NCBI GenBank assembly: GCA_018713375.1
Contig: DVOV01000176.1
Coordinates: 1 to 13,456 of the forward strand
Direction: 5' to 3'
Length of the DNA stretch: 13,456 nucleotides
Source of the DNA: Candidatus Scatomorpha stercorigallinarum
Lineage (GTDB): Bacteria; Bacillota_A; Clostridia; Oscillospirales; Oscillospiraceae
Below the pieces are notes generated by a model. It saw only the letters and a program-made list of their open reading frames with translations, was not told the DNA's origin and made no database searches. The position numbers and the translations under genes were made by a program. The first letter of the stretch is position 1; the number at the start of each line of letters is the position of its first letter. Below, piece by piece: positions 1-13,338 of the stretch.

Positions 1-1
1 C

Positions 2-1222
2 TTCGCCGGCATCATGGAGAGCCACATGCACGAGTACAAGCCCGCCGGCACCCCCGACGAGCTGGTGCGCGCCGCCATGGCCGACCCCATCGGCACCCCG
101 ACCCTGGCCGTGATGGCCGAGGGCAAGAAGAAGGTCGTCATCATCTGCTCCGACCACACCCGCCCGGTGCCCAGCAAGGTCATCATCCCCCCGATGCTGG
201 AGGAGATCCGCAAGGGCAGCCCCGACGCCGACATCACCCTGCTGATCGCCACCGGCTGCCACCGCGAGACCACCAAGGAAGAGCTCATCAACAAGTTTGG
301 TGAGGACATTGTCGCCAACGAGAAGATAGTCGTCCACGACTGCGACGACACCGACAACCTCGTCTGCATCGGCAAGCTGCCCAGCGGCGGCGACCTGATC
401 GTCAACAAGCTGGCCGTCGAGGCCGACCTGCTGGTGGCCGAGGGCTTCATCGAGCCCCACTTCTTCGCGGGCTTCTCCGGCGGCCGCAAGAGCATCCTGC
501 CCGGCATCGCCTCCCGCAAGACCGTTGTTTACAACCACAACGGCAAGTTCATCGACGATCCGCACAGCCGCACCGGCATCGTGGACGGCAACCCCATCCA
601 CAACGATATGCTGTATGCCGCCCGCGCCGCGCACCTGGCCTACATCGTGAACGTCATCAACGACTCCAACAAGACCCCCATCTACGCTGTCGCCGGCGAC
701 GTCGACCTGGCCCACCGTGTCGGCCGCGAGTTCCTGAGCAGCCAGTGCCAGGTGCCCGCAAACATGAGCGACATCGTCATCTCCACCAACGGCGGCTATC
801 CGCTGGACCAGAACATCTATCAGTCCGTCAAGGGCATGACCGCCGCTGAGGCCACCGTCAAAGAGGGCGGCGTCATCATCATGCTCAGCAAGTGCAACGA
901 CGGCCACGGCGGCAAGGTTTTCTATGAGACCTTCCGCGACGAGAAGAATCTGCAGCGCATGATGGACACTTTCATCGCCACTCCGCCCACCGAGACCATC
1001 ATCGACCAGTGGCAGAGCCAGATTTTCGCCCGTCTGCTGATGCGCGCCACCGTTGTGTTTGTCTCCGACGCCCCGGACGACATGGTCTCCGACCTGCACA
1101 TGGTCCCGGCCCACTCCATGGAGGAGGCCCTGGCCAAGGCCGACGAGATCCTCGCCGCCAAGGGCATCAAGGACGGCTCCATCCTCTCCATCCCCGACGG
1201 CGTGTCCGTCATGGTGGTGTGA
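2..1222 (+). CDS. larA: LarA-family nickel-dependent alpha-hydroxyacid racemase/epimerase (5' partial)
   Basis: This is a LarA-family enzyme, which inverts the alpha carbon of 2-hydroxyacids by hydride transfer on a nickel-pincer (NPN) cofactor. The frame is open to the window edge. The first ATG is at 14, but the residues before it (FAGI) also fit the family, so the true start lies upstream. Numbering from that ATG, all residues known to matter in Lactobacillus plantarum LarA are found with a constant offset of 25: D47 and R50 (D72, R75), H83 (H108), H149 (H174), the cofactor lysine K159 (K184) in GFSGGRK, and nickel ligand H175 (H200). The C-terminal half carries STNGGYPLDQN and VKGMTAAEA. 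The match to true lactate racemase is close, but the family also holds malate, phenyllactate, hydroxyglutarate and gluconate racemases or epimerases. The neighbouring acid-sugar genes suggest a sugar-acid substrate, which is inference. larB and larC lie downstream. Confidence 0.93.
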   Translation, partial: FAGIMESHMHEYKPAGTPDELVRAAMADPIGTPTLAVMAEGKKKVVIICSDHTRPVPSKVIIPPMLEEIRKGSPDADITLLIATGCHRETTKEELINKFGEDIVANEKIVVHDCDDTDNLVCIGKLPSGGDLIVNKLAVEADLLVAEGFIEPHFFAGFSGGRKSILPGIASRKTVVYNHNGKFIDDPHSRTGIVDGNPIHNDMLYAARAAHLAYIVNVINDSNKTPIYAVAGDVDLAHRVGREFLSSQCQVPANMSDIVISTNGGYPLDQNIYQSVKGMTAAEATVKEGGVIIMLSKCNDGHGGKVFYETFRDEKNLQRMMDTFIATPPTETIIDQWQSQIFARLLMRATVVFVSDAPDDMVSDLHMVPAHSMEEALAKADEILAAKGIKDGSILSIPDGVSVMVV

Positions 1223-1261
1223 GAGCCGGCACAGCGCTAATAACTTACCCGGCATGACCTA

Positions 1262-1292
1262 CGCGCCGGCCCTGCCGGGCCGGCGCGGTTTT
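1262..1292 (+). terminator. GC-rich hairpin with TTTT, between the racemase and glycerate kinase genes
   Basis: A perfect 11-bp stem (1262-1272 with 1277-1287, left arm CGCGCCGGCCC) closes a TGCC loop and is followed by GTTTTC. This is an intrinsic terminator with a short U tract, so partial read-through is possible. The 137-bp gap also holds a second small hairpin (1316-1321 with 1326-1331, CAGGCC/GGCCTG) just upstream of the ribosome site of the next gene. A poor promoter candidate lies there too (TTGTGA at 1309, 17-nt spacer, TAAAAG at 1332), so whether the next gene starts a new transcript cannot be settled by eye. Confidence 0.75.
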
Positions 1293-1359
1293 CATAACCA
1301 AAAGACGGTTGTGAGCAGGCCGAAGGGCCTGTAAAAGCAAGCAAGCGGAGGTTTTTGCA

Positions 1360-2496
1360 TTGAAAAAAGCGGTTCTTATACCCGATTCCTTTAAGGGCAC
1401 CATGTCTTCCACCCGCGTTTGCCAGCTCATAGCGGAGCGCATCGAGAAGATATTCCCCGGCTGCGCCGTGCAGTCCATCCCCGTCGCGGACGGTGGCGAG
1501 GGCAGCGTTGACGCCTTCCTCACCGCCGTTGGCGGCGAGAAGGTGACCAGGACCGTCACCGGCCCCTGGTTTGAGCAGTGCGAGGGCTACTACGGGCTGA
1601 TCGACGGCGGCGCCACCGCCGTGCTCGAGATGGCAGCCGCGGCCGGCCTGCCCATGGTGGGTGACCACAAGGACCCCAGCGGCACCACGACCTACGGCGT
1701 GGGCGAGCTGATAGCGGACGCGGCCCGCAGCGGGGCCAAAAAGCTCGTCGTCGGCCTCGGCGGCAGCGCCACGAACGACGGCGGCTGCGGCGCGGCCGCT
1801 GCCGCGGGCGTCAAGTTCTACAACGCCGCGGGAGAGAGCTTCGTGCCCGTGGGCGGCACGCTGAAGGACATCGAGCGCATCGACATGTCCAGCCGCGACC
1901 CGGCGCTGAACAGCGTGGAGATCGTCACCATGTGCGACATAGACAACCCGATGTACGGCAAGACCGGCGCGGCCTATATCTTCGGGCCCCAGAAGGGCGC
2001 CGACCCGGCGATGGTCGAGTCGCTCGACCAGGGGCTGAGGCATCTGGCCGAGGTCATCAAGCGCGACGTGGGCGTCGACGTGGCCGAAATCCCCGGCGCG
2101 GGCGCGGCGGGCGCCATGGGCGCCGGCATGGTGGCCTTCTTCGGCTCCCGGCTGCAGATGGGCATCGAGACCGTGCTCGACACCGTGGGCTTCGACGAGG
2201 CTATCAAGGACGCCGACGTTATTTTCACCGGCGAGGGCAAGATAGACTCCCAGAGCCTGCGCGGCAAGGTCGTCATCGGCGTGGCCCGCAGGGCGGTGAA
2301 GCAGGCGAAGCCCGTTATCGCCATCGTCGGCGGCGCGGACTACGACGTTGACGCCGCCTATGGCGAGGGCGTGACGGCCATCTTCCCGATAAACCGCCTG
2401 CCGCAGGACTTCTCTGTGCTCAAGGAGCACTCCGAGGAGAACCTGGCCTTCACAGCGGAGAACGTGCTGCGCACCATGCGCATGGCCGGAATGTGA
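1360..2496 (+). CDS. garK: Glycerate 2-kinase (GarK/GlxK family)
   Basis: A 378-residue glycerate kinase of the GarK/GlxK family, which phosphorylates D-glycerate with ATP to 2-phosphoglycerate and so feeds lower glycolysis. Family motifs are all visible: PDSFKG at 8-13, PVADGGEG at 41-48, GLGGSATNDGGCG at 132-144 and TGEGKIDSQSLRGK at 290-303. The length is usual for the family. The start is a TTG codon, chosen because GGAGG at 1347-1351 lies 8 nt upstream and the protein begins MKKAVLIPDS, as homologues do. The next gene begins 8 nt after the stop, so the two are co-transcribed. In this cluster it may handle glycerate made from a sugar acid by dehydration and cleavage, but no aldolase or tartronate semialdehyde reductase is in view. 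Confidence 0.93.
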   Translation: MKKAVLIPDSFKGTMSSTRVCQLIAERIEKIFPGCAVQSIPVADGGEGSVDAFLTAVGGEKVTRTVTGPWFEQCEGYYGLIDGGATAVLEMAAAAGLPMVGDHKDPSGTTTYGVGELIADAARSGAKKLVVGLGGSATNDGGCGAAAAAGVKFYNAAGESFVPVGGTLKDIERIDMSSRDPALNSVEIVTMCDIDNPMYGKTGAAYIFGPQKGADPAMVESLDQGLRHLAEVIKRDVGVDVAEIPGAGAAGAMGAGMVAFFGSRLQMGIETVLDTVGFDEAIKDADVIFTGEGKIDSQSLRGKVVIGVARRAVKQAKPVIAIVGGADYDVDAAYGEGVTAIFPINRLPQDFSVLKEHSEENLAFTAENVLRTMRMAGM

Positions 2497-2504
2497 GGCG
2501 CGGC

Positions 2505-3533
2505 ATGAAGCCGATCCTTGCGATAACAATGGGCGACCCGGCGGGCGTCGGGCCGGAGATATCCGTCAAAGCCCTCGCCAAGAGCGAGGTCTATGGTTAC
2601 TGCCGGCCGCTCGTCGTGGGCTCGCCAGTCATAATGGAGCGCGCGAAGGGCTTCGTGGGGATGCCGGAGATCGCCATCCATGAGATAAAGTCCGTCTCCG
2701 AGGCCAAGTTCGAGTGCGGCACCATCGACGTGCTTGACCCGGGCCTGGAGGGCATGGAGCAGGTCGTCCCCGGCAAGGTGAGCGCCCTGGCGGGCGACGC
2801 GGCCTTCAAATGCGTGGTCAAGGCCATCGAGCTGGCCATGGCCAAGGAAGTTGACGGCACCGTCACCAACCCGCTGAACAAGGAGGCCATCAACCTCGCC
2901 GGGCACCACTTCTCCGGGCACACGGAGATCTATGCGCACTACACCAACACCAAGAAGTACACCATGATGCTCGTGCATGAGAACATGCGCGTCGTCCACG
3001 TCTCCACCCACGTCTCGCTGCGCGAGGCCTGCGACCGCGTGAAGAAGGACCGCGTGCTGGACTGCATCCGCATCGCGGCGGACGCCTGCCGCAAGCTGGG
3101 CATTGAAGACCCGCGCGTGGGCGTGGCCGGGCTCAACCCGCACTGCGGCGAGAACGGCATGTTCGGCCGCGAGGACCTGGACGAGATCGCCCCGGCGGTG
3201 GAGGCCGCCAAGGCGGAGGGCATCGACTGCACCGGCCCCGTGGCGCCCGACACCGTGTTCAGCAAGCTGCGCGGCGGCTGGTTCGACGTGGTCGTGGCCA
3301 TGTACCACGACCAGGGGCACATACCGATGAAGGTCGTGGGCTTCGTCTATGACCAGGAGAAGAAGGAATGGGGCGCCGTGGCGGGCGTGAATATCACCTG
3401 CGGGCTGCCCATCATCCGCGTCAGCGTTGACCACGGCACGGCCATGGGCCACGCGGGACACGGCAACGCCAGCGAGCTGAGCCTGATAAACTCCATCGAG
3501 TGCGCCACTCAGTTCGCGCTGCACTGGGAGTGA
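2505..3533 (+). CDS. pdxA2: PdxA/PdxA2-family 4-phospho-acid dehydrogenase
   Basis: A 342-residue NAD-dependent, metal-dependent dehydrogenase of the PdxA family. PdxA itself oxidises 4-phosphohydroxythreonine in pyridoxal phosphate synthesis. The PdxA2 branch oxidises and decarboxylates D-threonate 4-phosphate (or D-erythronate 4-phosphate) to dihydroxyacetone phosphate. Motifs seen are MGDPAGVGPEI at 9-19, GHHFSGHTE at 133-141, the three likely metal histidines H169, H213 (GLNPHCGE) and H268 (MYHDQGH), and the C-terminal VDHGTAMGHAGHGNAS. The ATG at 2505 is preferred over the GTG at 2493 because GAGG at 2495-2498 lies 6 nt before it and the protein then starts MKPILAITMGDP as usual. The four-carbon acid sugar kinase follows 4 nt after the stop, and that pairing favours the PdxA2 role over vitamin B6 synthesis. 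Confidence 0.88.
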   Translation: MKPILAITMGDPAGVGPEISVKALAKSEVYGYCRPLVVGSPVIMERAKGFVGMPEIAIHEIKSVSEAKFECGTIDVLDPGLEGMEQVVPGKVSALAGDAAFKCVVKAIELAMAKEVDGTVTNPLNKEAINLAGHHFSGHTEIYAHYTNTKKYTMMLVHENMRVVHVSTHVSLREACDRVKKDRVLDCIRIAADACRKLGIEDPRVGVAGLNPHCGENGMFGREDLDEIAPAVEAAKAEGIDCTGPVAPDTVFSKLRGGWFDVVVAMYHDQGHIPMKVVGFVYDQEKKEWGAVAGVNITCGLPIIRVSVDHGTAMGHAGHGNASELSLINSIECATQFALHWE

Positions 3534-3537
3534 TAGA

Positions 3538-4752
3538 ATGGACAGATATCTGATAATAGCCGACGATTTCACCGGCGCTAACGACACAGGCGTGCAGCTG
3601 CGCCGCCGCGGCCTGCCCACGAGCGTCATCTTCGCGGGCAAGAAGCTGCCGGAGGGCGACTGCGTGGTGATAGACACCGAGAGCCGCGGCGTTTCCCCCG
3701 AGGAGGCGGCCGAGGCCGTTACGCTCGCCTGCGCGGAGGTCAACTTTGACGACTATAAGTACGTCATCAAGAAAGTGGACTCCACCCTGCGTGGCAACAT
3801 CGCCGCCGAGGTGGCCGCCATGGACGCGGCCTATAAGCCGGAGCTCATCATTTTCATGCCCGCGCTGCCCGCGCTGGGCCGCACCACCGAAAACGGCGTC
3901 CACTGCCTTAAAGGCGTGCCCCTGACGGAGACGGAGCTCGCCAAGGACCCCAAGAACCCCGTCCGCGAGGACAACATCAACAGGTTGCTGGCCGCGGCCT
4001 ATACGGAGAACGTCACGCACGTCTCGCTCGGCGAGATACGCAACGGGTTCGCCATCGAGGGCGGGCGCGTCTTTACCTTCGACAGCGTCTCCGACCAGGA
4101 CATGCAGGCCGTCATCGCGGCTGCCAAGGCCACGGGCAAGCGCACGCTGTATATCGGCACGGCCGCCATGGCCGACAACATCATGGCCCTGGAGAGCACG
4201 GTGGCGCCTGTGATGGGCGTCATCGCCAGCGTCAGCGACGTATCCGGCGGGCAGGTGCGCGCGGCGGAGGCCGCGGGCGTCAAGAGCGTGGTCGTGCCCT
4301 TCCACGAGATACTCTCCGGCGCCAAGGGGCAGGCCGAGTATGTGAACGCCACCGTGGAGAGCCTGAAGGCCGGGCACGACACCATGCTCGTCAGCAGCAG
4401 CACACTCAGCCGCAGCGAGCTCGAGGCCGCCAAGGCCGAGGGCGAGCGCCAGGGCATGAGCCTGCCGCAGGTGAGCGACTATGTGCGCTTCACGATGGGC
4501 GAGATGGCCGCCGCCGTGCTCGGCGAGTGCGCCGTCAGCGGCGTGTTCGTAACGGGCGGTGACACGGCGCTGGGCCTGCTGGAGAGCCTGGGCGCGGACG
4601 GCTCGGAGATACTCTCCGAGGTCAGCGTGGGCATCCCCATGATGCGCCTCATCGGCGGAAAGGCCGCTGGCGTGAAGATGGTCACAAAGGCGGGCGCTTT
4701 CGGCACGCCGGACGCCATCAACAACGCCTTCCGCAAGCTCAAGGAAGCCTGA
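3538..4752 (+). CDS. Four-carbon acid sugar kinase (DUF1537, DtnK/OtnK-like)
   Basis: A 404-residue two-domain kinase of the former DUF1537 family, which phosphorylates the 4-hydroxyl of threonate, erythronate or 2-oxotetronate with ATP. The N-terminal substrate domain shows IADDFTGANDTG near 7-18 and KKVDSTLRGN near 78-87. The C-terminal nucleotide domain shows VTGGDTALGLL near 338-348, an IPMMRL segment and KAGAFG. The length is typical. The ribosome site GGGAG (3526-3530) overlaps the stop of the preceding gene, so the two are tightly coupled. A kinase next to a PdxA2-like enzyme without an OtnC-type aldolase or OtnI isomerase fits the D-threonate route (DtnK plus PdxA2). Which four-carbon acid it accepts is inferred from that pairing and cannot be read from the sequence. 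Confidence 0.9.
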   Translation: MDRYLIIADDFTGANDTGVQLRRRGLPTSVIFAGKKLPEGDCVVIDTESRGVSPEEAAEAVTLACAEVNFDDYKYVIKKVDSTLRGNIAAEVAAMDAAYKPELIIFMPALPALGRTTENGVHCLKGVPLTETELAKDPKNPVREDNINRLLAAAYTENVTHVSLGEIRNGFAIEGGRVFTFDSVSDQDMQAVIAAAKATGKRTLYIGTAAMADNIMALESTVAPVMGVIASVSDVSGGQVRAAEAAGVKSVVVPFHEILSGAKGQAEYVNATVESLKAGHDTMLVSSSTLSRSELEAAKAEGERQGMSLPQVSDYVRFTMGEMAAAVLGECAVSGVFVTGGDTALGLLESLGADGSEILSEVSVGIPMMRLIGGKAAGVKMVTKAGAFGTPDAINNAFRKLKEA

Positions 4753-4765
4753 AATAAAGAGTGAG

Positions 4766-4789
4766 GCCGGGCCGCCGACGCGGCCCGGC
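4766..4789 (+). other. Intercistronic GC hairpin without U tract
   Basis: A perfect 10-bp stem (4766-4775 with 4780-4789, left arm GCCGGGCCGC) closes a CGAC loop in the 51-nt gap before the dehydratase small subunit. No T tract follows. The purine-rich ribosome site of the next gene comes directly after it. It is more likely an mRNA stability or processing element than a terminator, which is inference. Confidence 0.6.
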
Positions 4790-4803
4790 GGAAAGGAAAG
4801 TAA

Positions 4804-5097
4804 ATGAGCACTATTCACGCGGTCCATATCGACGACAAGGACTCCTGCGTCACCGTCACCGAGCCCGTCAAGGCCGGGGACACCGTGGAGTACCACCTGG
4901 CGGACGGCACGGTGGAGACCGTTACCGCCCTGGGCGACTCGCCCATCTATCACAAGATCGCCATCGTGGACGTGCCGGAGGGCGGATTCGTCTACAAGTA
5001 CGGCCAGAAGATCGGCATAGCCAGCTGTGATATCAAAAAGGGCGACTACGTCCACACCCACAATTTGAAGCCCGTCGGGCACCTGCAGGAGGCGTGA
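4804..5097 (+). CDS. UxaA-family dehydratase small subunit (SAF domain)
   Basis: A 97-residue SAF-domain protein matching the N-terminal part of altronate/galactarate dehydratases (UxaA/GarD) when that part is encoded separately. Conserved segments are HKIA at 50-53, KYGQKIG at 65-71, and VHTHN at 83-87, which is the usual end of the SAF fold. It is expected to form a complex with the product of the next gene and help bind the substrate carboxylate. The ribosome site is the AAAGGA near 4792. Its stop overlaps the ribosome-site region of the large subunit, as expected for subunits made in step. The same split layout occurs in (R)-sulfolactate sulfo-lyase (SuyA/SuyB), so the substrate class is open. 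The sugar-acid kinases next door favour a sugar acid. Confidence 0.87.
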   Translation: MSTIHAVHIDDKDSCVTVTEPVKAGDTVEYHLADGTVETVTALGDSPIYHKIAIVDVPEGGFVYKYGQKIGIASCDIKKGDYVHTHNLKPVGHLQEA

Positions 5098-5099
5098 AC

Positions 5100-6272
5100 A
5101 TGGATAAGACCACTTTTATGGGCTATAAGCGCCCCTACGGCCGCGTCGGCATCCGCAACCACGTCGTGGTCATGCCCGGCGTCAACTGCGCGGAGATCGC
5201 CGCCAGGCGCATCGCTGAGAGCTGCAAGGGCTCCACGCTGCTCACCAACCCCTACGGCTGCGTGCAGAGCCAGGGCGACACGCAGATCACGCTGAAGATC
5301 CTTGCCGGCCTGCTCGCCAACCCGAACGTACACAGCGTGCTCATCGTCGGCCTCGGCTGCGAGACCATGCAGAAGGACATGTACCTCAACGCCGTGGAGG
5401 AGCGCTCCCCCGGCAAGCGCGTGGAGTATATCTCCATCCAGCAGTGCGGCGGCATCGGCCGCACGGTGGCAAAGGGCATCTCCATCGTCCAGGAGCTGAT
5501 GGCGGAGGCCGAAAAGTGCAAGCGCGAGCCCTGTCCCATCGGCGAGCTGATGCTCGGCCTCGAGTGCGGCGGCAGCGACCCCACGAGCGGCATCTGCGCC
5601 AACGTGGCGCTGGGCATCGTCTCCGACCGGCTGGTCGATATGGGCGGCAGCAGCGTCATCAGCGAGACCAGCGAGGCCATCGGCGCCGAGCACATCCTCA
5701 AGGCCCGCGGCGCCACGCCGGAGATCGGCCAGAAGATCTATGACACCATCAAGTGGAAGGACGACGCCTACCGCGAGATGGGCGAGGACATCCGCAACTC
5801 CAACCCGACGCCGGGCAACATCCGCTCCGGCCTCACCACGCTGGAGGAGAAGAGCCTGGGCTGCATCAACAAGAGCGGCACGCGGCCCTTCACCGGCTGC
5901 TACGCCTATGGCGAGATGATCACCACCCGCGGCCCCGCCTTCCTGGAGACCGGCGCTTACGACCCGCTCTCCACCATCGGCGAGCTCGCCAGCGGCTGCC
6001 AGACCGTGGCCTTCACCACCGGCATGGGCAACCCGATGGGCTGCGCCGTGGGCCCGGTCATAAAGATAACCGGCAACCACCAGACCTATGAGTGGATGAA
6101 CGACCTGCTCGATTTCGACTGCAGCGCCAGCCTGCGCGGCGAAAAGAGCCACGCCCAGGTGGCGGACGAGCTCTTCGACCTCATAATCGACGTCTGCGAG
6201 GGCAAGCTGACCAAGGCGGAGATCAACGGCTCCGACATCAACACCATCGACCACTACAATATGCTCTGCTGA
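5100..6272 (+). CDS. UxaA-family dehydratase large subunit
   Basis: A 390-residue large subunit of the altronate/galactarate dehydratase family, metal-dependent lyases that remove water from sugar acids to give 2-keto-3-deoxy acids. Motifs are GYKRPYGRVGIRN at 8-20, NPYGCVQSQGD at 50-60, GLGCE at 84-88, QQCGG at 114-118, GLECGGSDPTSGI at 153-165, PGNIRSGLTTLEEKSLG around 238-254 and TTGMGNPMG at 306-314. The conserved cysteines C54, C87 and C156 are the obvious metal-ligand candidates. The start is the ATG at 5100 because AGGAGG (5087-5092) lies 7 nt upstream. The GTG at 5094 is only 1 nt from it. An (R)-sulfolactate sulfo-lyase (SuyB) has the same fold and size and cannot be excluded by eye. 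Altronate specificity should not be assumed. Confidence 0.87.
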   Translation: MDKTTFMGYKRPYGRVGIRNHVVVMPGVNCAEIAARRIAESCKGSTLLTNPYGCVQSQGDTQITLKILAGLLANPNVHSVLIVGLGCETMQKDMYLNAVEERSPGKRVEYISIQQCGGIGRTVAKGISIVQELMAEAEKCKREPCPIGELMLGLECGGSDPTSGICANVALGIVSDRLVDMGGSSVISETSEAIGAEHILKARGATPEIGQKIYDTIKWKDDAYREMGEDIRNSNPTPGNIRSGLTTLEEKSLGCINKSGTRPFTGCYAYGEMITTRGPAFLETGAYDPLSTIGELASGCQTVAFTTGMGNPMGCAVGPVIKITGNHQTYEWMNDLLDFDCSASLRGEKSHAQVADELFDLIIDVCEGKLTKAEINGSDINTIDHYNMLC

Positions 6273-6289
6273 GGGCATGGAAAAATGCG

Positions 6290-6316
6290 AGGGCCGCCCC
6301 GCGCGGGCGGCCCTTT
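6290..6316 (+). other. Perfect GC hairpin before larB (weak terminator or processing site)
   Basis: A perfect 10-bp stem (6290-6299 with 6305-6314, left arm AGGGCCGCCC) closes the loop CGCGC and is followed by TTTGCGGGTTTTCG. The T run touching the stem is too short for a strong terminator, so attenuation or RNA processing between the catabolic genes and the cofactor genes is likelier. The hairpin also argues against starting larB at the upstream ATG at 6277. Confidence 0.6.
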
Positions 6317-6336
6317 GCGGGTTTTCGAGGTATGCT

Positions 6337-7083
6337 ATGAAGAAAAAATTCGTTTTGGACATCCTGAAAGAGGTCGAGGCCGGAAGGCTCTCGGCCGACG
6401 ACGCTCTTACCCGCCTGAAGCTCGAGCCAATAGAGGAGCTCGGCTTCGCGCGCGTGGACCTGCACCGGGAACTGCGCCAGGGCGCGACCGAGGTGATCTA
6501 CGGCGCGGGGAAGACGCCGGAACAGATTTCGAAAATTATCGGCGCGTTGATGGACAACGGCGCGCCCACCGTGCTCACCACGCGCATGGCGCAGGAGGCG
6601 GCGGACTATGTGGGCGAGCGGCATGAGCTGCGCTACGACCCCGTTTCACGCGTGGGCATCGCCGGCGAGATACCGGAGCCGGACGGCGTGGGCACCATAG
6701 TCGTCGCCACCGGCGGCACGACGGACATCCCCGTGGCGGAAGAGGCGGCGCTGACCGCCGAGGCGCTGGGGAACCGCGTGAAGCGCCTCTATGACGTGGG
6801 CGTTTCCGGCATCCACCGCCTGCTCGAGCACGCGGACGACATCGTCACCGCCCGCTGCATCGTGGCCGTGGCCGGCATGGAGGGAGCGCTGCCGAGCGTC
6901 ATCGGCGGGCTTGCCGACTGCCCGGTGATCGCCGTTCCCACCAGCGTGGGCTATGGCGCCGCATTTGGCGGCGTGGCGGCGCTTTTGAGTATGCTGAATT
7001 CCTGCGCCAGTGGCCTGTCCGTGGTCAACATCGACAACGGCTTCGGGGCGGGCTATCTGGCCAGTATGATAAATCACCTGTGA
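6337..7083 (+). CDS. larB: LarB, nickel-pincer cofactor biosynthesis carboxylase/hydrolase
   Basis: A 248-residue LarB, which carboxylates nicotinic acid adenine dinucleotide and releases pyridinium-3,5-biscarboxylic acid mononucleotide, the first step to the nickel-pincer cofactor. The N-terminus holds the LarB-type LGFARVDLHRELRQG. The C-terminal PurE-like domain holds ATGGTTDIPVAEEAA, LYDVGVSGIHRLL, VAGMEGALPSVIGGL, PTSVGYGA and LNSCASGLSVVNID. The start at 6337 (MKKKFVLDI) is chosen because GAGG at 6327-6330 sits 6 nt upstream. The longer form from 6277 would read through a hairpin and adds unrelated residues. larC begins 10 nt after the stop. It is expected to supply cofactor to the racemase at the start of the window. 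Confidence 0.96.
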   Translation: MKKKFVLDILKEVEAGRLSADDALTRLKLEPIEELGFARVDLHRELRQGATEVIYGAGKTPEQISKIIGALMDNGAPTVLTTRMAQEAADYVGERHELRYDPVSRVGIAGEIPEPDGVGTIVVATGGTTDIPVAEEAALTAEALGNRVKRLYDVGVSGIHRLLEHADDIVTARCIVAVAGMEGALPSVIGGLADCPVIAVPTSVGYGAAFGGVAALLSMLNSCASGLSVVNIDNGFGAGYLASMINHL

Positions 7084-7093
7084 GGACCGAGCA

Positions 7094-8416
7094 ATGAGAA
7101 CACTTTATCTTGACTGCGGCATGGGCGCGGCGGGCGATATGCTGATGTCCGCGCTCTATGAGCTGGCGCCCGACCGCGAGGGCTTTTTGCGCAAAATGGC
7201 GGAGCTGGGCCTGCCCGGCGTGGAGGTGAAGCTCGCGCGCGCGGAGAGCCACGGCATCGCCGGCACGCACGCTGCCGTGACCGTACACGGCCTGGAGGAG
7301 GACGAGCACCTGCACGGCCACGAGGGGCACGGACATGGCCATGAGCAGCCCCACGAACATCCGCATGAGCACGGGCACGACCACGGGCACGAACATGAGC
7401 ATGACCACGGCCACGGGCATGTTCATGAGCACGAGCATGAGCATGAGCACGCTCACGAACACGAACACGGCCACCACCATCACGGGCCGCACCTGAGCGA
7501 CGTCCTGGCGCTCATCGGCTCGCTGCCGGTGTCCGAGCGCGTGAGGGAGGACGCCTGCGCGGTCTACCGCGCCATCGCGGAGGCCGAGGGCGAGGCGCAC
7601 GGCGCCGCGCCGGACATGGTGCACTTCCACGAGGTGGGCTCGCTGGACGCCATCGCCGACGTGGTCGGCGTCTCGCTGCTGATGGAGGCGATTGCGCCGG
7701 AGCGCGTGGTGGCCTCGCCTGTGCGCGTGGGCTATGGCACTGTGCGCTGCGCGCACGGGCTGCTGAGCGTCCCCGCGCCGGCCACGGCCTCGCTGCTCAA
7801 GGGCGTGCCCATCTATGCCGGCGCTCTGGAGGGCGAGATGTGCACCCCCACGGGCGCGGCGCTGCTGAAGCACTTCGCCACGGAGTTCGGGCACATGCCG
7901 GAGATGGAGACGGAGGCCGTCGGCGTGGGCCTGGGGACGCGCGATTTCGGCACGCCCAACTGCCTGCGCGCCTTTCTGGGCGAGAGCCGGGGCGGGCTGC
8001 CGCGCGTGAGCGAGCTCAGGTGCAACATCGACGACGCCACGCCCGAGGAGCTGGGCTTTGCCATGGACGTGCTGCTGGAAAACGGCGCGCTGGACGTGTT
8101 CACCGTGCCCATCGGCATGAAGAAAAACCGCCCCGCCACCCTTCTCTGCTGCCTTTGCACGACGGACAGGGAAGAGGAGATGGGCCGGCTGCTGCTGCGC
8201 CATACGCCCACGCTGGGCGTGCGCATCTACCGCCCGGAGCGGATGACGCTAAGCCGCGGCATCGAGACGGCGGAAACGCGCTTCGGCCCCGTGCGCGTCA
8301 AGACCGCAGAGGGCTGGGGCGTGAGCAAGCGGAAGGCGGAGTATGACGACATCGCCCGCATCGCCCGCGAAAACGGCCTCACGCTGGCCGAGGCGCGCGC
8401 TGAGGCGGAAAAGTGA
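7094..8416 (+). CDS. larC: LarC, nickel insertase for the nickel-pincer cofactor
   Basis: A 440-residue LarC, the CTP-dependent nickel insertion protein (cyclometallase) that completes the nickel-pincer cofactor. The N-terminus reads LDCGMGAAGDM as in the family. Later come HFHEVGSLDAIADVVG, GYGTVRCAHGLLSVPAPAT, EGEMCTPTGAALL, CNIDDATPEELG and a C-terminal FGPVRVK...SKRKAEYDD segment. Residues 72-133 are a low-complexity His/Glu/Gly/Asp stretch, presumably for nickel storage or delivery. In L. plantarum the gene is split into larC1/larC2 joined by programmed frameshifting. Here both parts are in one continuous frame. The ribosome site GAGGA overlaps the larB stop (7082-7086). larE, the sulfur-donating partner, does not follow. 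Confidence 0.96.
   Translation: MRTLYLDCGMGAAGDMLMSALYELAPDREGFLRKMAELGLPGVEVKLARAESHGIAGTHAAVTVHGLEEDEHLHGHEGHGHGHEQPHEHPHEHGHDHGHEHEHDHGHGHVHEHEHEHEHAHEHEHGHHHHGPHLSDVLALIGSLPVSERVREDACAVYRAIAEAEGEAHGAAPDMVHFHEVGSLDAIADVVGVSLLMEAIAPERVVASPVRVGYGTVRCAHGLLSVPAPATASLLKGVPIYAGALEGEMCTPTGAALLKHFATEFGHMPEMETEAVGVGLGTRDFGTPNCLRAFLGESRGGLPRVSELRCNIDDATPEELGFAMDVLLENGALDVFTVPIGMKKNRPATLLCCLCTTDREEEMGRLLLRHTPTLGVRIYRPERMTLSRGIETAETRFGPVRVKTAEGWGVSKRKAEYDDIARIARENGLTLAEARAEAEK
7307..7492 (+). repeat. His-rich low-complexity coding repeat in larC
   Basis: Residues 72-133 of LarC contain about 31 histidines in 62 positions, mostly as HG, HE and HD pairs ending in HHHH. The DNA is a degenerate run of CAC/CAT alternating with GAG, GGG/GGC and GAC codons, so length variation between strains is likely. 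Histidine-rich stretches are known in LarC and other nickel chaperones. Confidence 0.9.
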
Positions 8417-8420
8417 CATA

Positions 8421-8443
8421 ACGGCTTGAATGAGCCGTATTTT
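8421..8443 (+). terminator. Weak terminator hairpin after larC
   Basis: A 6-bp stem ACGGCT/AGCCGT (8421-8426 with 8433-8438) and ATTTTG follow 4 nt after the larC stop. It is weak, but it is the only candidate end for the larBC transcript. Its loop contains the -35 of the next promoter. Confidence 0.45.
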
Positions 8444-8454
8444 GCTGGTATAAT
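8426..8454 (+). promoter_or_regulatory. Promoter of the ECF sigma / anti-sigma operon
   Basis: The -35 is TTGAAT at 8426-8431, the spacer is 17 nt, and the -10 is a perfect TATAAT at 8449-8454 preceded by TG one base upstream (extended -10). Transcription would start near 8461, leaving a leader of about 75 nt. This is a housekeeping-type promoter. No second, ECF-type promoter was recognised. Confidence 0.75.
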
Positions 8455-8476
8455 CAGAACGCAAAAAATTTTTTCC

Positions 8477-8502
8477 GGGCGGTGCAATAAAACGCGCCGC
8501 CC
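8477..8502 (+). other. Leader hairpin upstream of the sigma gene
   Basis: The stem 8477-8485 with 8494-8502 (GGGCGG/CCGCCC extended by a G-U and two more pairs) encloses the loop AATAAAAC. It lies in the 5' leader after an A6T6 tract (8463-8474). There is no T tract after it. A role in leader stability is possible. I do not recognise a riboswitch. Confidence 0.4.
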
Positions 8503-8535
8503 AGGCATTATTATGGCAGTCAGGAGGTCGCGGCC

Positions 8536-9099
8536 TTGTTGATGATGCTTGGAGCTACGCTTTCCGGAGGCGGAGCGGAGGCGCTCGAACGTTGCCTTGT
8601 CCGTATGGCGGACGGGGACACAGACGCCCTTTCCGGGCTCTATGAGAGGACGCACGCGGCCATATACGGCTACGCGCTATCACTCCTGAAGAATGTACAG
8701 GACGCCGAGGACGTAATGCAGGACACCTTTGTAAAGGCGTTTCACTCCGCGGGGCAATACAAAAGCTCCGGCAAACCCATGGCCTGGCTGATGACCATCG
8801 CCCGCAACGAGGCGCTGATGCGCATCCGCGGCCGGGGGAGGACGGTCTCGATGTCCCCGGAGGACTGGCAGGAACAGTTCGCCGACCAGCCGGACGTCTC
8901 GCAGGAGGATATGCTGACACTGAAAGCCCTGCTGGAGACGCTCTCCGACGAGGAGCGGGAGATTGTCACGCTGCATGCGCTCACCGGGCTCAAGCACCGG
9001 GAGATCGCCGCCATGCTGGACCTGGCATTGCCCACTGTCCTGTCGAAGTACAACCGCGCCATAAAAAAGCTTGGGAAGTCCCTTGAGGAGGCTGAGTGA
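8536..9099 (+). CDS. ECF-type RNA polymerase sigma-70 family factor
   Basis: A 187-residue sigma factor with only regions 2 and 4. Region 2 spans about 33-98 and includes the core-binding DAEDVMQDTFVKAF and the -10-recognition part ending near AWLMTIARNEALMRIR. Region 4 spans about 130-180 with LSDEEREIVTLHALTGL and a helix-turn-helix around KHREIAAMLDLALPTVLSKYNRAIKKL. The start is the TTG at 8536, 7 nt after AGGAGGT (8522-8528). A second TTG and two ATGs follow within 9 nt, so the exact first residue is uncertain. The stop overlaps the start of the membrane anti-sigma candidate by one base (TGATG), typical of a sigma/anti-sigma pair. The regulon is unknown. Confidence 0.92.
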   Translation: MLMMLGATLSGGGAEALERCLVRMADGDTDALSGLYERTHAAIYGYALSLLKNVQDAEDVMQDTFVKAFHSAGQYKSSGKPMAWLMTIARNEALMRIRGRGRTVSMSPEDWQEQFADQPDVSQEDMLTLKALLETLSDEEREIVTLHALTGLKHREIAAMLDLALPTVLSKYNRAIKKLGKSLEEAE

Positions 9100-11129
9100 T
9101 GGACAACGAAAAGCTCGAACAGCGCATACGCGACCTGGCCGGGCACGCCGCGCCCGATAAGCTCGGCGACATACTCGCAGCCTGTCAGCAGGACGCCCGG
9201 AAAGGAACGATAATCGATATGAATACCGAAGTGAAGAAGAGGAGACCCCGTTGGACGGCCATCGTTGCCGTCGCCGCTGCCGTCGCGCTCATCTGCGCCG
9301 CCGGCTTTATAGGCTACGGCTACGGCCGCACCGCCGCCCCCACCGAGGATTCGGTGATCATGCTCGACGTCAACCCCAGCGTGTCCATCAGCGTGGACGC
9401 GGAGGAGAAGGTCCTCGCCGTCACGCCGCTGAACGCGGACGGCAACATCGTCGTCGGCGACATGGACTTCACCGGCTCCAGCCTGGACGTGACGGTGAAC
9501 GCCCTCATCGGCTCCATGCTGCTGAACGGCTATATCGACGACATCACGAACTCCATCCTGGTCACCGTTGAGAACGGCGACGCCGCCCGCGCGGCCACAT
9601 TGCAGGAGCGCGTGACGGCCCTCGTCAGCGGCGCGCTGAGCAGCGACGGCCTGCAGGCTTCCGTCATCAGCCAGACGGTCACGCAGAGCAGCGAGCTGAG
9701 CGCCCTTGCCCAGCAGTACGGCATCTCCGAGGGCAAGGCGGAGCTCATCCGCAAGGTCGTGCTGCTCGATCCCACGCTTACTTTCGAGACGCTTGCCGGG
9801 CTGAGCGTGAACGACATCTCCCTGATAGCCGACTCCCGCTCGCTGAGCGATTCCACCGTGACCCAGACCGGCTCCGCCAGCGACAAGGGCTACATCGGCG
9901 AGGAGGCCGCAAAGGCCGCCGCCTATGCCCACGCAGGCGTTTCCGCCGCGGATGTCAGCTATTCCTACGTTGATTACGACAGCGAGAACGGCATCATGGT
10001 CTACGAGGTGAAGTTCCTGGCCGGGGACGTGGAGTACGAGTACGACATCAGCGCGCTCGACGGCGCCATCGTCAAGTATGAGCGCGACCAGAGCGGCAGC
10101 GGGCTGAGCAGCCCAAACGCGAGCAGCGACTATATAGGCGAAGCCGCCGCCAAGGCCGCCGCGCTGGAACACGCGGGCCTCAGCGAGAGCGACGTCACCT
10201 GGACGAAGGCCAGCTTTGACCGCGAGAACGGCATAATGATCTATGAGATAGAATTCATCACCGCCGACGCCGAGTACGATTACGAAGTCAACGCCCTCAC
10301 GGGCGCGATCGTCAAGTCCGAGCGTGAGGTGCGCCGCGCCCCCGCCGGCAGCCAGGGCGCCGTGGCCCCGCCGGTGCAGACGGGCGCCGTCTCCATGGAC
10401 GATTACATCGGCGAAGAGGCCGCCAGGGCCGCCGTGCTGGAGCACGCGGGCGTCGCCTCTGCCGACGCCACCTGGACCAAGTGCGCGCTGGAGCGCGAGA
10501 ACGGCGTGATGGTCTATGAGCTCGATTTCTTCACGGCAGAGGCCAAGTATGACTACGAGGTGAACGCCACCAGCGGCGAGATCGTCAAGTCCGAGCGCGA
10601 GGTACGCGGCAGCGGCGCGGCCCAGGCCGGCGCGGGCACCACGGACAGCTATATCGGCGTGGACGCGGCCAAGGCCGCCGTGCTGGAGCACGCGGGCGTC
10701 GCCGCCGCCGATGCCACCTGGATAAAGACCGAGCAGGACTGGGAGCACGGCGTGATGGTCTATGACCTCGATTTCATCACGGCTGACGCCGAGTATGACT
10801 ACGAGGTGAACGCCAGCACGGGCGCGATACTCAAGTCCGAGCGCGAGGCGCGCCCCGCCGCCTCCCAGGGCGGCACCCAGACGGGCGGCGCGGCTGCCGG
10901 CGGCACTACCGCCGGGGGCTACATCGGCGAGGCCGCGGCCAAGGCCGCCGCGCTGGGCCACGCCGGCGTGGCCGAGGGCGACACCTACCAGATGAAAGTA
11001 GAGCTCGACCGCGACGACGGGGTCTATCTCTACGAGGTGGAGTTCAAGGCCGGCGGCATGGAGTATGAGTACGAGATCGACGCCTACAGCGGCGCCGTGC
11101 TCAAGGCCGAGCGCGATTACGACGACTGA
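9099..11129 (+). CDS. RsgI-like membrane anti-sigma factor candidate with five PepSY repeats
   Basis: A 676-residue membrane protein. Residues 1-50 are a short cytoplasmic region (LEQRIRDLAGHAAPDKLGDIL and the basic KKRRPRW) that could hold the sigma factor. One transmembrane helix spans about 52-73. Residues 85-190 resemble the extracytoplasmic RsgI N-terminal domain: LDVNPSVSISVD at 89-100, then TPLNADG and an ILVTV segment. From 265 on come five PepSY-type repeats starting YIG at about 265, 345, 436, 518 and 608, joined by Gly/Ser/Ala-rich linkers. The start is the ATG at 9099 with GAGGAGG (9085-9091) 7 nt upstream. No HxxxCxxC zinc anti-sigma motif is present. Pairing with the sigma gene suggests transmembrane signalling with PepSY as sensor or protease-inhibiting module. 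The signal is unknown. Confidence 0.85.
   Translation: MDNEKLEQRIRDLAGHAAPDKLGDILAACQQDARKGTIIDMNTEVKKRRPRWTAIVAVAAAVALICAAGFIGYGYGRTAAPTEDSVIMLDVNPSVSISVDAEEKVLAVTPLNADGNIVVGDMDFTGSSLDVTVNALIGSMLLNGYIDDITNSILVTVENGDAARAATLQERVTALVSGALSSDGLQASVISQTVTQSSELSALAQQYGISEGKAELIRKVVLLDPTLTFETLAGLSVNDISLIADSRSLSDSTVTQTGSASDKGYIGEEAAKAAAYAHAGVSAADVSYSYVDYDSENGIMVYEVKFLAGDVEYEYDISALDGAIVKYERDQSGSGLSSPNASSDYIGEAAAKAAALEHAGLSESDVTWTKASFDRENGIMIYEIEFITADAEYDYEVNALTGAIVKSEREVRRAPAGSQGAVAPPVQTGAVSMDDYIGEEAARAAVLEHAGVASADATWTKCALERENGVMVYELDFFTAEAKYDYEVNATSGEIVKSEREVRGSGAAQAGAGTTDSYIGVDAAKAAVLEHAGVAAADATWIKTEQDWEHGVMVYDLDFITADAEYDYEVNASTGAILKSEREARPAASQGGTQTGGAAAGGTTAGGYIGEAAAKAAALGHAGVAEGDTYQMKVELDRDDGVYLYEVEFKAGGMEYEYEIDAYSGAVLKAERDYDD
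9891..11117 (+). repeat. Five tandem PepSY-domain coding repeats
   Basis: Units begin at 9891, 10131, 10404, 10650 and 10920, that is every 80-91 codons. Each follows the pattern YIGxxAAxAAxxxHAG, then xNGxMxYExxF, xYDYEVNAxxGxIxKSERE. Units 2, 3 and 4 are most alike at the DNA level, including repeated stretches around VLEHAGV and KSEREV, which points to tandem duplication within the gene. Units 1 and 5 are the most diverged. Confidence 0.9.
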
Positions 11130-11247: not shown

Positions 11248-11640
11248 ATGACAAAATACGAAAAGGAGATATACCGCATCGTCAACAGCTCGCGGGATCA
11301 CATGACGGCGGAGCAGATGTTTTCTGCCCTGCGCGAGGTCTACCCGACGGTGTCGCTGGCGACGATCTACAACAACCTCAACCGCCTGTGCGAAGCGGGG
11401 CTGCTGCGGCGCATCAGCGTCGAGGGCTCGCCGGAGCGCTTCGACCGCGCGGAGAAGCACGACCACCTGGTCTGCGAGCGCTGCGGGCGGTTGGCGGACG
11501 TGAGTTTTGACGACCTGACCGCCTCGCTGCGCGCTCAGCTGGGCGAGGACTTTTCCTACTACGACCTGAAGGTGTATTACCTCTGCCCGCAGTGCCGGGC
11601 GGAGCAGTGTAAGACGGACGAGAAAGGAGAATGCGAGTGA
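11248..11640 (+). CDS. perR: PerR-like peroxide-sensing Fur-family repressor
   Basis: A 130-residue Fur-family repressor. The winged helix has [19 protein letters not shown] around 36-53. Structural zinc cysteines are C76/C79 (CERC) and C113/C116 (CPQC). All five ligands of the regulatory Fe/Mn site of Bacillus subtilis PerR have counterparts: H18 (H37), D66 (D85), H71 (H91), H73 (H93) and D84 (D104). The aspartate at the last position is the PerR-type choice rather than the Fur-type glutamate. The protein is about 15 residues shorter than B. subtilis PerR, mostly at the N-terminus. PerR proteins lose DNA binding when peroxide oxidises the site histidines. Operators over its own promoter suggest autoregulation, and the downstream rubredoxin/rubrerythrin genes are classic PerR targets. 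Confidence 0.9.
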
Positions 11641-12281
11641 AGTACGTATGTAAGGTCTGCGGCTACGTCTATGACGAGGAGCGCGAGGGCAAGCCGTTCG
11701 GCGAGCTGCCGGAGGACTGGCGCTGTCCCGTGTGCACCGCGCCCAAGACAGCGTTCGAGAGTGCGGGCGGCGGGCCGCAGGAGCCGGAGGCGAAGGCAAA
11801 AGCTGAGCCGGCGCCCGTAATGGAGCCGGCGGAGGAATTGCGGGAGCTGACGGCCGGGGAGCTGGCTGCGCTGTGCTCAAACCTGGCGCGCGGCTGCGAG
11901 AAGCAGTACAACGAGGGCGCGGCGGCGCTCTACCGCGAGCTGGCGGACTATTTTGCCGCCGTGACGCCGCCCGTGCCGGAGGCGGAGGTGGCGGCGCTGG
12001 CCGCCGAGCTGAAGGCGGACCTCACGCAGCGCTATCCCGCCGCCAGGGAGGCGGCCGCGGCGCAGGGCGACCGGGGCACGCTGCGCGTGTGTACCTGGGG
12101 CGAGAAGGTGACGAATATGCTCGCTTCGCTGCTGGATATGTACCGGAGCGGGGGCGAGGAGGCCTTTAAGGACAGGAAACTCTGGCTCTGCACGGTGTGC
12201 GGATTCATCTACGCCGGCGAACAGCCGCCGAAGATCTGCCCGGTGTGCAAGGTGCCGGAGTGGAAATTCGAGCGCGTTTGA
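11637..12281 (+). CDS. Protein with a rubredoxin domain at each end, possibly a degenerate rubrerythrin relative
   Basis: A 214-residue protein with two rubredoxin iron sites. The N-terminal rubredoxin (1-42) has C5/C8 and C30/C33 in [10 protein letters not shown]. The C-terminal rubrerythrin-style rubredoxin (183-214) has C185/C188 and C201/C204 with PEWKFE. An acidic Ala/Pro/Glu linker (43-68) leads to a helical middle (69-180) that looks like a shortened ferritin-like domain but has no histidine, so the ExxH ligands of a diiron site are absent. It is probably an electron carrier to the rubrerythrin downstream, which is inference. The GTG start at 11637 is preferred because GGAG at 11626-11629 lies 7 nt upstream and the protein then starts [10 protein letters not shown]. 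The ATG at 11631 is 1 nt from the site. GTGA overlaps the perR stop, so translation is coupled. Confidence 0.82.
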
Positions 12282-12294
12282 AGGGGGCGGAAGT

Positions 12295-13338
12295 ATGAAA
12301 AAAGTTGCTGTACGCAATCTCAGGCTCTGCACAAAGGACTGCCTGTGCCTGTACGTCTGCCCCACGGGCGCGACGGACACCGAGGACAGCGTCATCGACG
12401 TGAGCAAGTGCATCGGCTGCGGCGTATGCGCCGGGGCCTGCCCCAGCGGGGCCATATCCATGGTGCCGGAGGAGTACCCGCCCCAGCAGCCGAAGGACGA
12501 GGCCGTGCTGGAAAAGACGCGCGCGCTGACGTCCAGCAAGGCGCGCGAGGAAAAAATGGCCCGTCAGCTGGCGGAGAACGCGCCGGAGGGGCTGAAGAGG
12601 CTGATGAAGGCCGCCGCCGGCTCGATGCGGCTGGTGAACGAGGACCTGCTGCGCGAGTCGCGCTATATGCTGCCGCAGAGCGCGGCGGCGCACGAGCTGC
12701 TTGAGAGGCTCGTGGCCGCGCCGCCCACGGGCTTCCCTGTGGAGGCGGCGAAGAAACTGCTGGAAATGATACCCTGTAACGAAGAAAGGAAGGAAAAAGA
12801 TATGAACAAGTACGCCGGGACCCAGACTGAGAAGAACCTCGAGGCCGCTTTCGCCGGAGAGAGCCAGGCACGCAATAAATACACCTATTTCGCCTCCGTC
12901 GCAAAAAAGGAGGGCTACGAGCAGATCGCCGCGCTGTTCCAGAAGACCGCCGACAATGAGAAGGAGCACGCGAAGATGTGGTTCAAGGAGATGAACGGCA
13001 TCGGCAATACGGCGGAAAACCTCCTGCACGCCGCGGAGGGCGAGAATTACGAGTGGACGGACATGTACGACGGCTTTGCCAAAACGGCGGAGGCCGAGGG
13101 CTTCCCCGAGCTGGCGGCCAAGTTCCGCCTGGTGGCGGCCATCGAGAAGCACCACGAGGAGCGCTACCGCGCGCTGCTGCGCAATGTGGAGATGGCCGAG
13201 GTGTTCGCCAAGAGCGAGGTCAAAGTGTGGGAGTGCCGCAACTGCGGGCACATCGTCGTCGGCGCCAGCGCGCCGGAAGTCTGCCCCACCTGCAACCATC
13301 CGCAGAGCTACTTCGAGCTCAACTGCGAGAACTATTGA
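12295..13338 (+). CDS. Ferredoxin-rubrerythrin fusion frame
   Basis: A single 347-codon frame with two parts. Residues 1-58 are a two-cluster ferredoxin: an unusual CxxxCxCxxxCP set (C12, C16, C18, C22) and a canonical CxxCxxCxxxCP set (C39, C42, C45, C49). Residues 59-169 are a helical, charged region without a known domain. Residues 170-347 are a complete 178-residue rubrerythrin. The first start has AAGGGGG 7 nt upstream. The joint reads EERKEKD, which is a purine-rich ribosome site being translated, and the rubrerythrin has its own ATG at 12802. The gene may therefore make a fusion, a separate rubrerythrin, or both. If fused, electrons could pass from the ferredoxin clusters to the rubredoxin and diiron sites to reduce peroxide. 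A lost stop codon or sequencing indel is the alternative. Confidence 0.8.
12787..12793 (+). promoter_or_regulatory. Internal ribosome binding site before rubrerythrin
   Basis: AGGAAGG sits 8 nt upstream of the ATG at 12802, inside the longer open frame. Its translation in that frame gives the run EERKEKD, unlike a conserved protein segment, which suggests the bases are kept for ribosome binding. Confidence 0.65.
12802..13338 (+). CDS. rbr: Rubrerythrin (internal in-frame start)
   Basis: This is a complete 178-residue rubrerythrin, a non-haem diiron peroxidase that reduces hydrogen peroxide in anaerobes. Numbering from this ATG, the diiron ligands are E20 (FAGES), E53 and H56 (NEKEH), E81/E84 (ENYEW) and E115/H118 (IEKHHE). 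The C-terminal rubredoxin iron site is C145/C148 and C161/C164. AGGAAGG at 12787-12793 lies 8 nt upstream, a good independent ribosome site, and the protein begins [20 protein letters not shown] as stand-alone rubrerythrins do. It shares its frame with the upstream ferredoxin part and no stop separates them. It is listed separately because it is probably also made on its own. Confidence 0.82.

Follow-up and report, generated by a model that had tools for sequence, protein, structure and literature searches.

The DNA analysed here, in the following called the window, is a stretch of 13,456 nucleotides from Candidatus Scatomorpha stercorigallinarum (contig DVOV01000176.1, forward strand), and it opens with eight genes grouped around a LarA-type racemase that depends on the nickel-pincer nucleotide (NPN) cofactor. 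We propose that this LarA is a glycerate racemase which feeds the adjacent glycerate kinase, with the use of a four-carbon acid as a parallel branch, an interpretation of sequence data to which we assign a probability of about 0.55. An earlier note on the same DNA had preferred a threonate/erythronate 2-epimerase; it listed the glycerate kinase and gave it no role, though this is the commonest named gene directly downstream of larA in the loci surveyed below. The evidence suggests that the first choice of interpretation moves from the epimerase to the glycerate racemase, with the four-carbon reading as a serious rival.

The eight genes lie on the forward strand between positions 2 and 8416 in the order larA, garK, pdxA, dtnK, uxaN, uxaC, larB and larC. 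Their frames and families agree with the earlier description of a racemase amid a DUF1537 kinase, a PdxA2-like dehydrogenase, a UxaA-type dehydratase, a glycerate kinase and larB/larC. The larA frame (2..1222, Lar_N and LarA_C domains), coding for an NPN-dependent 2-hydroxyacid racemase and predicted glycerate racemase, has its 5' end beyond the window; it is missing the first 21 codons because the window begins inside the gene, the start being seen in the relative L004. The curated model for nickel-dependent lactate racemase (NF033504) gives it 590.5 bits at a cut-off of 460. The gene downstream codes for a GarK-type glycerate kinase (1360..2496, +) with 458.5 bits for PF02595 (cut-off 23.3) and 421.9 for TIGR00045 (cut-off 168.45), and it scores under the cut-offs of two narrower glycerate kinase models. 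Its start is a TTG preceded by GGAGG, and the closest solved structure is 3cwc.

Residues of LarA are numbered here after LarA1 of L. plantarum, and papers are cited by their PMC numbers. The equivalents of H73, R75, H108, H174, F175, F176, K184, H200, Q295, K298 and W358 are identical in the window LarA, so that all catalytic and cofactor positions checked bear out the earlier claim of a homologue with the known active-site residues; R75, H108, H174, K184, H200, Q295 and K298 are the NPN-binding and catalytic ones among them. Where LarA1 has T359, a position known for its part in specificity, the window protein has a Gln. The LAR group of enzymes is characterized by F175, F176, W358 and either E or Q as residue 359 (PMC11770544), and the window protein has F, F, W, Q. 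The substrate side chain faces residues equivalent to these four positions (PMC11851776). Among the three LAR-group enzymes tested beside LarA1 the main difference is position 359, which is Glu in LarAH51, Gln in LarAH43 and Cys in LarAH42 (PMC11770544). Glycerate is the best measured substrate of LarAH43, with a kcat/KM of 1.14e5 /M/s versus 8.3e4 /M/s for lactate, and the Glu-type LarAH51 reaches 1.0e4 /M/s on glycerate versus 9.8e4 /M/s on lactate; dividing kcat/KM on glycerate by that on lactate gives 0.06 in LarA1, 0.10 in LarAH51 and 1.4 in LarAH43 (PMC11770544).

The genome of Enterocloster asparagiformis contains six LarA-like matches, two of them in the LAR group. Counting along the frame puts the Gln of one copy at residue 359, and counting from an in-frame Met puts the Cys of the other at residue 357; as these numbers agree with the published Q359 and C357 we assigned the copies to LarAH43 and LarAH42. 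LarAH43 (locus L052/L172) is the closest assayed relative of the window LarA: both belong to the LAR group with the residues F-F-W-Q, they are 65% identical, and around the pocket they have C107, Q359 and F363 in common but differ at 198 and 201. According to its authors the physiological significance of LarAH43 is still to be determined (PMC11770544).

Gene neighbourhoods were collected in two samples. Peptide patterns taken from the window LarA matched 122 loci in named genomes, and the best 80 of these make up set one; since one of the patterns, QWQSQIFA, includes the Gln (78 of the 80 loci are Gln types), this set is uninformative on the frequency of Gln. For set two we drew 391 genomes evenly from the class; a LAR-group larA at an E value of 1e-90 or better is present in 57 of them, giving 59 copies with Gln (21), Glu (27), Cys (8), Met (2) or Thr (1) at position 359; these loci were taken with up to 6 kb per side. 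The combined table has 140 rows, namely the window, 79 loci of set one, the 59 of set two and the LarAH42 locus. L004 was left out as it is on the same contig as L113, L001-L003 were not used, and the two reference rows from the PDB are without context. Neighbours were counted up to 6 kb away in either direction, a distance that many contigs do not reach; L113 is nearly a duplicate of the window, and kinship among the rows is common.

Of the 99 Gln types, 36 have a glycerate kinase (GarK or MOFRL) within 6 kb of larA, and of the 29 Glu types none has. Two unrelated kinase families are linked to Gln-type larA in this way: GarK is found near 30/99 Gln, 0/29 Glu and 0/9 Cys types, the MOFRL/DUF4147 kinase near 6/99 Gln and 3/9 Cys types. 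The top-scoring models of the MOFRL proteins are those of glycerate 2-kinase, yet the proteins stay under the respective cut-offs. Lactate-oxidation genes (EtfB-like, EtfA-like, GlcD-like and LctP, of which LctP alone passes its cut-off) accompany 18 of the 29 Glu types versus one of the 99 Gln types. This lactate contrast is present in set two alone (Glu 18/27 versus Gln 1/21, Fisher p 1.4e-5).

We also counted the genes that directly adjoin larA. Counting 98 Gln rows, that is without the window itself, the next gene downstream of larA is garK in 27, a MOFRL kinase in 4 and dtnK in 3 cases, and in 30 of the 31 rows with a kinase next downstream the gap is at most 123 bases. Immediately upstream we find pdxA in 7, dtnK in 7 and a KdgT-family permease in 11 of these rows; KdgT is present within 6 kb in 30 of the 99 Gln types. 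We further compared the LarA columns of 45 Gln rows with GarK, MOFRL or thiamine pyrophosphate (TPP) enzyme context to those of 18 Glu-type lactate rows, requiring majorities of at least 80%. Six positions separate the two groups: 198 (Y/A), 201 (N/C), 359 (Q/E), 363 (F/L), 384 (V/I) and 387 (L/M). The TPP rows are part of this comparison and of the tree tests mentioned below, whereas the count of 36/99 refers to GarK and MOFRL only. N201 occurs in 12 of 16 rows with the kinase only, in 19 of 19 with the kinase plus four-carbon acid genes (dtnK or pdxA) and in 7 of 8 with the latter only, and residue 359 is identical across all three; this common 359 and mostly common N201 suggest one substrate for all.

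According to the preferred reading, the NPN cofactor made by LarB, LarC and LarE (larE lying upstream in a relative) would serve LarA, which would take the hydride from C2 of L-glycerate while hydroxypyruvate stays bound. Return of the hydride on the opposite face would yield D-glycerate, and this could be phosphorylated by the neighbouring glycerate kinase and enter glycolysis. The DUF1537 kinase and the PdxA2-like dehydrogenase would form a second, co-regulated branch in which a four-carbon acid, for instance D-threonate, ends up as dihydroxyacetone phosphate. The KdgT-family permease upstream of larA probably imports these small acids, and the UxaA/GarD-type dehydratase may act on another sugar acid. 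In this picture the families, the residues, the order of the genes and the conservation of their links are observed, whereas substrates, direction, transport and joint regulation are inferred from them.

A number of observations weigh against the glycerate racemase. Next to the nickel ligand H200 the window clade has Y198/N201, in contrast to A198/C201 of LarAH43, and no match to glycerate kinase, DUF1537 or PdxA lies within 10 kb on either side of the LarAH43 gene itself (L052). The LarA of Isosphaera carries the Gln, yet it prefers L-lactate and 2-hydroxybutyrate, with L-glycerate next (PMC11851776), and Gln is therefore at most a necessary feature and alone not diagnostic of glycerate. A simple rule equating Gln with glycerate was rejected on these grounds and because most Gln types have no glycerate kinase nearby. 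Of the 99 Gln rows, 53 are without a glycerate kinase, a TPP enzyme, lactate genes or UxaA as context and 45 lack dtnK/pdxA as well; if only glycerate kinase and DUF1537/PdxA are considered, 55 have neither. Among the Glu rows 11 of 29 are without any scored context.

The kinase contrast is moreover confounded with the sampling, as set one supplies 77 of the 99 Gln rows and set two 27 of the 29 Glu rows. In set two alone it is weak (Gln 3/21 versus Glu 0/27, p 0.08); one of the three Gln loci is the near-twin of the window and another has the kinase on the opposite strand. Set one has the kinase close to larA in 32 of 77 Gln rows. These counts by sample indicate that the kinase link belongs to the clade nearest the window and not to Gln types at large. 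A quick maximum-likelihood tree was computed under LG+G4 without column 359, and the minimum number of changes on it is 15 for the residue type, 24 for the glycerate context with TPP rows and 11 for the lactate context. Independent-pair tests lean the expected way and are not significant, the informative pairs being too few (median p 0.5 for Gln/glycerate context, 0.5 for Gln/lactate context and 0.25 for Glu/lactate context). Finally, a terminator-like hairpin stands between larA and garK in the window, and the co-linkage of DUF1537/PdxA is left unexplained by glycerate alone.

Two loci offer a natural comparison pair for the window LarA. L009 (80% identical, flanks of more than 8 kb) and L008 (79-80% identical, on a 3.9 kb contig), both within the window's clade, combine Y198 and N201 with Glu359 and have none of the neighbours discussed here. 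This speaks for the preferred reading, chiefly through L009, since L008 has little flanking DNA. In both, GGDEF genes adjoin larA.

The rival that survives best, though we regard it as rather unlikely, is the epimerase of the earlier note: by converting D-erythronate to D-threonate, LarA would open both acids to the DUF1537 kinase and PdxA2. In the window the two enzymes in question are a PdxA2-like 4-phospho-sugar-acid dehydrogenase (2493..3533, +; PF04166) and a DtnK-like DUF1537 four-carbon acid sugar kinase (3538..4752, +; PF07005 and PF17042). Their best solved matches are 6e85, a D-threonate 4-phosphate dehydrogenase, and 4xfm, respectively. They thus represent the same two families as the known DtnK and PdxA2 and are likewise encoded by adjacent genes, with the difference that neither reaches the curated cut-off of the model for the precise function: the dehydrogenase reaches 352.5 versus 583 for the D-threonate 4-phosphate dehydrogenase model NF002891 and passes the general PdxA model TIGR00557 only (335.6, cut-off 290.35), and the kinase reaches 271 bits versus 450 for the DtnK model NF047819. 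The described D-threonate pathway of DtnK and PdxA2 is not known to include a LarA.

The gene context offers arguments on both sides. The earlier note regarded a neighbourhood that is not conserved as evidence against its proposal, and we find the link conserved, with dtnK or pdxA within 6 kb of 28 of 99 Gln types and none of the 29 Glu types (2/21 Gln types in the evenly drawn set). The catalytic part of UxaA is linked in 4 of the 99 Gln types only. The four-carbon genes directly adjoin larA upstream in 14 and downstream in 3 of the 98 rows. The order of the genes differs between loci: dtnK-pdxA-larA-garK (L010, L012, L018, L026, L047), dtnK-larA-garK-kdgT-pdxA (L017, L024, L028, L030, L046), larA-garK-kdgT-larB-larC-pdxA-dtnK (L013), and a divergent dtnK-pdxA unit (L006). 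The order kdgT-larA-dtnK without a linked glycerate kinase, as in L074 and L080 (the contig of L080 ends within dtnK), speaks for the epimerase, as does the replacement of F107 beside the catalytic His by Cys or Leu. LarAH43 has a weak but real activity on 4-deoxy-threonate of 80-170 /M/s (PMC11770544, Table 2), the only form in which threonate appears in the main text of that paper, but this is about 700- to 1400-fold worse than its activity on glycerate.

The equivalents of F175, F176 and W358, the tight F-F-W of racemases for three-carbon acids, are retained in the window LarA. Together with the glycerate preference of LarAH43 and the placement of glycerate kinase directly downstream of larA in 31 of 98 rows versus 3 for DUF1537, this argues against the epimerase as the best reading. 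Among the 99 Gln rows, 20 have a kinase plus dtnK/pdxA, 16 the kinase without DUF1537/PdxA within 6 kb, 8 dtnK/pdxA only and 55 neither. Of the genomes behind the kinase-only rows 14 were searched (L118 and L132 were left out); 10 have DUF1537 elsewhere and in 4 it was not found, many of the genomes being incomplete. Conversely, 7 of the 8 genomes with four-carbon genes only hold a glycerate kinase gene away from larA.

Beyond this clade the four-carbon genes also occur on their own, which likewise counts against the epimerase. A DUF1537/PdxA pair is found beside a PrpR-type regulator on an Enterococcus raffinosus plasmid (L179), another in Azospirillum, and a PdxA in Pantoea, where the sequence stops short of any kinase. 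Searching these stretches (10-17 kb, or 11-17 kb for those bearing the pair) revealed no larA. The pair can therefore be a module of its own. L181 and L182 (PdxA and a DUF1537/PdxA pair, respectively) carry annotations as iron alcohol dehydrogenase, dihydrodipicolinate-synthase family and exo-alpha-sialidase. A sigma-54 activator of PrpR_N type (family F3) is present in 22 of the 80 set-one loci.

Somewhat less probable is a broad racemase for small polar acids which would turn over glycerate and four-carbon acids at useful rates and supply both kinases. The co-occurrence of the kinase and DUF1537/PdxA contexts in the rows counted above (Fisher p 1.4e-5, not corrected for kinship) is in agreement with this, as is the promiscuity reported for LAR-group enzymes (PMC11770544). 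However, the rates on four-carbon acids are very low in the relatives tested there, and the co-occurrence could stem from shared uptake or regulation only. An extension of comparably small likelihood is that a LarA subfamily defined by Y198, N201 and Q359, in Clostridia and Treponema, gates a regulon for three- and four-carbon aldonates, interconverting L/D-glycerate and D-erythronate/D-threonate, which would make every C2 isomer brought in by one permease usable for the two kinases.

We consider it improbable that the window LarA is an ordinary lactate racemase which happens to be in the cluster, although NF033504 gives it this name. The LarA1 of L. plantarum and the LarA of T. saccharolyticum (5huq, 6c1w, 2yjg) show full-length similarity to it with the same cofactor and catalytic residues, but they have T or E at 359 and are named lactate racemase. 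The many Gln types with neither kinase nor DUF1537/PdxA nearby and the rarity of the kinase link in the drawn sample would fit such an enzyme, and LarAH43 is good on lactate too (PMC11770544). This is opposed by the distribution of lactate-oxidation genes, which in both the full table and the drawn sample accompany the Glu types, and by the six columns that split the sets, including Y198/N201/Q359/F363 versus A/C/E/L. The Glu-type operons with EtfAB-like, GlcD-like and LctP genes resemble the proposed system in that larA would likewise make both enantiomers of a three-carbon acid usable; they differ in serving lactate and not glycerate, and through a dehydrogenase and not a kinase.

It is very improbable that LarA works as an epimerase on the sugar acid used by the UxaA/GarD-type dehydratase. 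In favour of this, such a pair is linked to all nine Cys359 loci; against it, the catalytic part is linked to few Gln types. The Gln-type loci concerned are the window, two Scatomorpha relatives and L024, where a homologue of 33-35% identity is encoded at a greater distance. In the window the enzyme is split over two genes, the small SAF-domain part uxaN (4804..5097, +; PF08666) and the large catalytic part uxaC (5094..6272, +; PF04295 and PF20629, matching galactarate dehydratase 6u7l). It shares the GD_AH domains of the UxaA/GarD superfamily (PMC6336799), and four Cys of uxaC (32, 56, 89 and 158) are common to GarD 6u7l and the copies of the relatives; they presumably correspond to those numbered in that paper. 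It differs by its split and by a score far below the GarD galactarate dehydratase model TIGR03248 (220.3 versus a cut-off of 730.85), and among the matches listed in a protein search the window UxaA received generic names only. The split protein is a predicted dehydratase of some sugar acid. The sulfolactate sulfo-lyase SuyAB, which lacks the four Cys of the superfamily (PMC6336799), was set aside as these are present here.

The Cys359 loci, all with a UxaA/GarD-type pair, are L161-L167, L170 and L178, the LarAH42 locus included. LarAH42 is slow on the tested substrates (PMC11770544), hence its true substrate may be a larger sugar acid. A GntP-type carrier is found in 4 of the 8 drawn Cys359 loci, and L163 also has GarR and a MOFRL kinase.

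The Gln-type larA of Treponema and other Spirochaetota (L027, L029, L036, L048, L054, L064, L079, L081) is directly preceded by genes for an iron alcohol dehydrogenase and for a TPP enzyme of the acetolactate synthase/Gcl type. Glyoxylate carboligase was considered as a third link to glycerate and dropped. The Gcl model is the best-scoring one and remains below its cut-off (600.3 versus 791 on one member), and all 10 members listed keep the catalytic Glu, which Gcl is not known to have.

The last two genes of the cluster are larB (6334..7083, +; open frame from 6277), with 281.6 bits for NF033503 at a cut-off of 175, and larC (7094..8416, +), over the cut-offs of TIGR00299 and NF052512; both belong to NPN cofactor biosynthesis. 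The LarC1 and LarC2 parts sit in a single frame, joined by a His-rich linker, in contrast to the larC of L. plantarum with its known frameshift. A 65-residue stretch of LarC (7298-7492) contains 31 His and is likely a nickel-binding linker. A tblastn search with one LarE query found no larE in the window. In L004, the nearest relative (a Candidatus Scatomorpha intestinavium record, LarA 99% identical), the order is larE (TIGR00268 249.6 bits, cut-off 150), a KdgT-family permease (PF03812 392.4 bits, under the cut-off of the exact KdgT model) and larA. Counting this upstream larE of the near-identical relative, the NPN cofactor set of larB, larC and larE is complete. Both L004 and L005, another Scatomorpha record, preserve larA-garK-pdxA-dtnK-uxaN-uxaC in this sequence, and the arrangement is therefore not an assembly accident.

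Stop and start codons overlap or nearly touch at garK/pdxA, pdxA/dtnK, uxaN/uxaC and larB/larC. The exception to this tight packing is a gap of 137 bases between larA and garK, in which a G+C-rich hairpin of 11 pairs with a T-rich tail (1262..1287, +) is a candidate terminator or attenuator. The same hairpin occurs in L004, and in L005 seven T come after it, as in a terminator; in positions 1-9100 we found 8 terminator-like sites versus 5.1 expected from shuffles. Because of this hairpin the downstream genes may need read-through or a second promoter in the window lineage. A strong intergenic G+C palindrome lies between uxaC and larB (6290..6314, no strand assigned). Beyond larC, positions 8536-11129 code for an ECF sigma factor and, after it, for an anti-sigma protein of RsgI type that contains an RsgI_M domain and, as scored by Pfam, four PepSY repeats. 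Next, at 11248-13338, come a Fur-family regulator, a protein whose two ends each carry rubredoxin-like domains, and a fusion of ferredoxin, rubrerythrin and rubredoxin, probably an oxidative-stress cluster.

In the literature searched, which lies outside subscription papers and supplements, we found neither the phrase "glycerate racemase" nor "lactate racemase" and "glycerate kinase" together, while larA, glycerate and the nickel-pincer nucleotide are mentioned jointly in four records. The word "kinase" does not appear in PMC11770544 and appears once in PMC7583248, in a general remark on sugar kinases; "glycerate" is absent from the main text of PMC11796402 and PMC12611868. Table S1 of PMC7583248, which lists neighbouring COGs, may already show the kinase link.

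The link to glycerate kinase provides a testable role for the relatives of LarAH43, by which gut anaerobes would use L-glycerate or racemic glycerate via a nickel enzyme. Within the LAR group our results suggest a working annotation rule in which lactate genes accompany Glu, UxaA pairs accompany Cys, and glycerate kinase accompanies the combination of N201, Y198 and Q359. Such a rule matters as the curated model currently names the window protein a lactate racemase.

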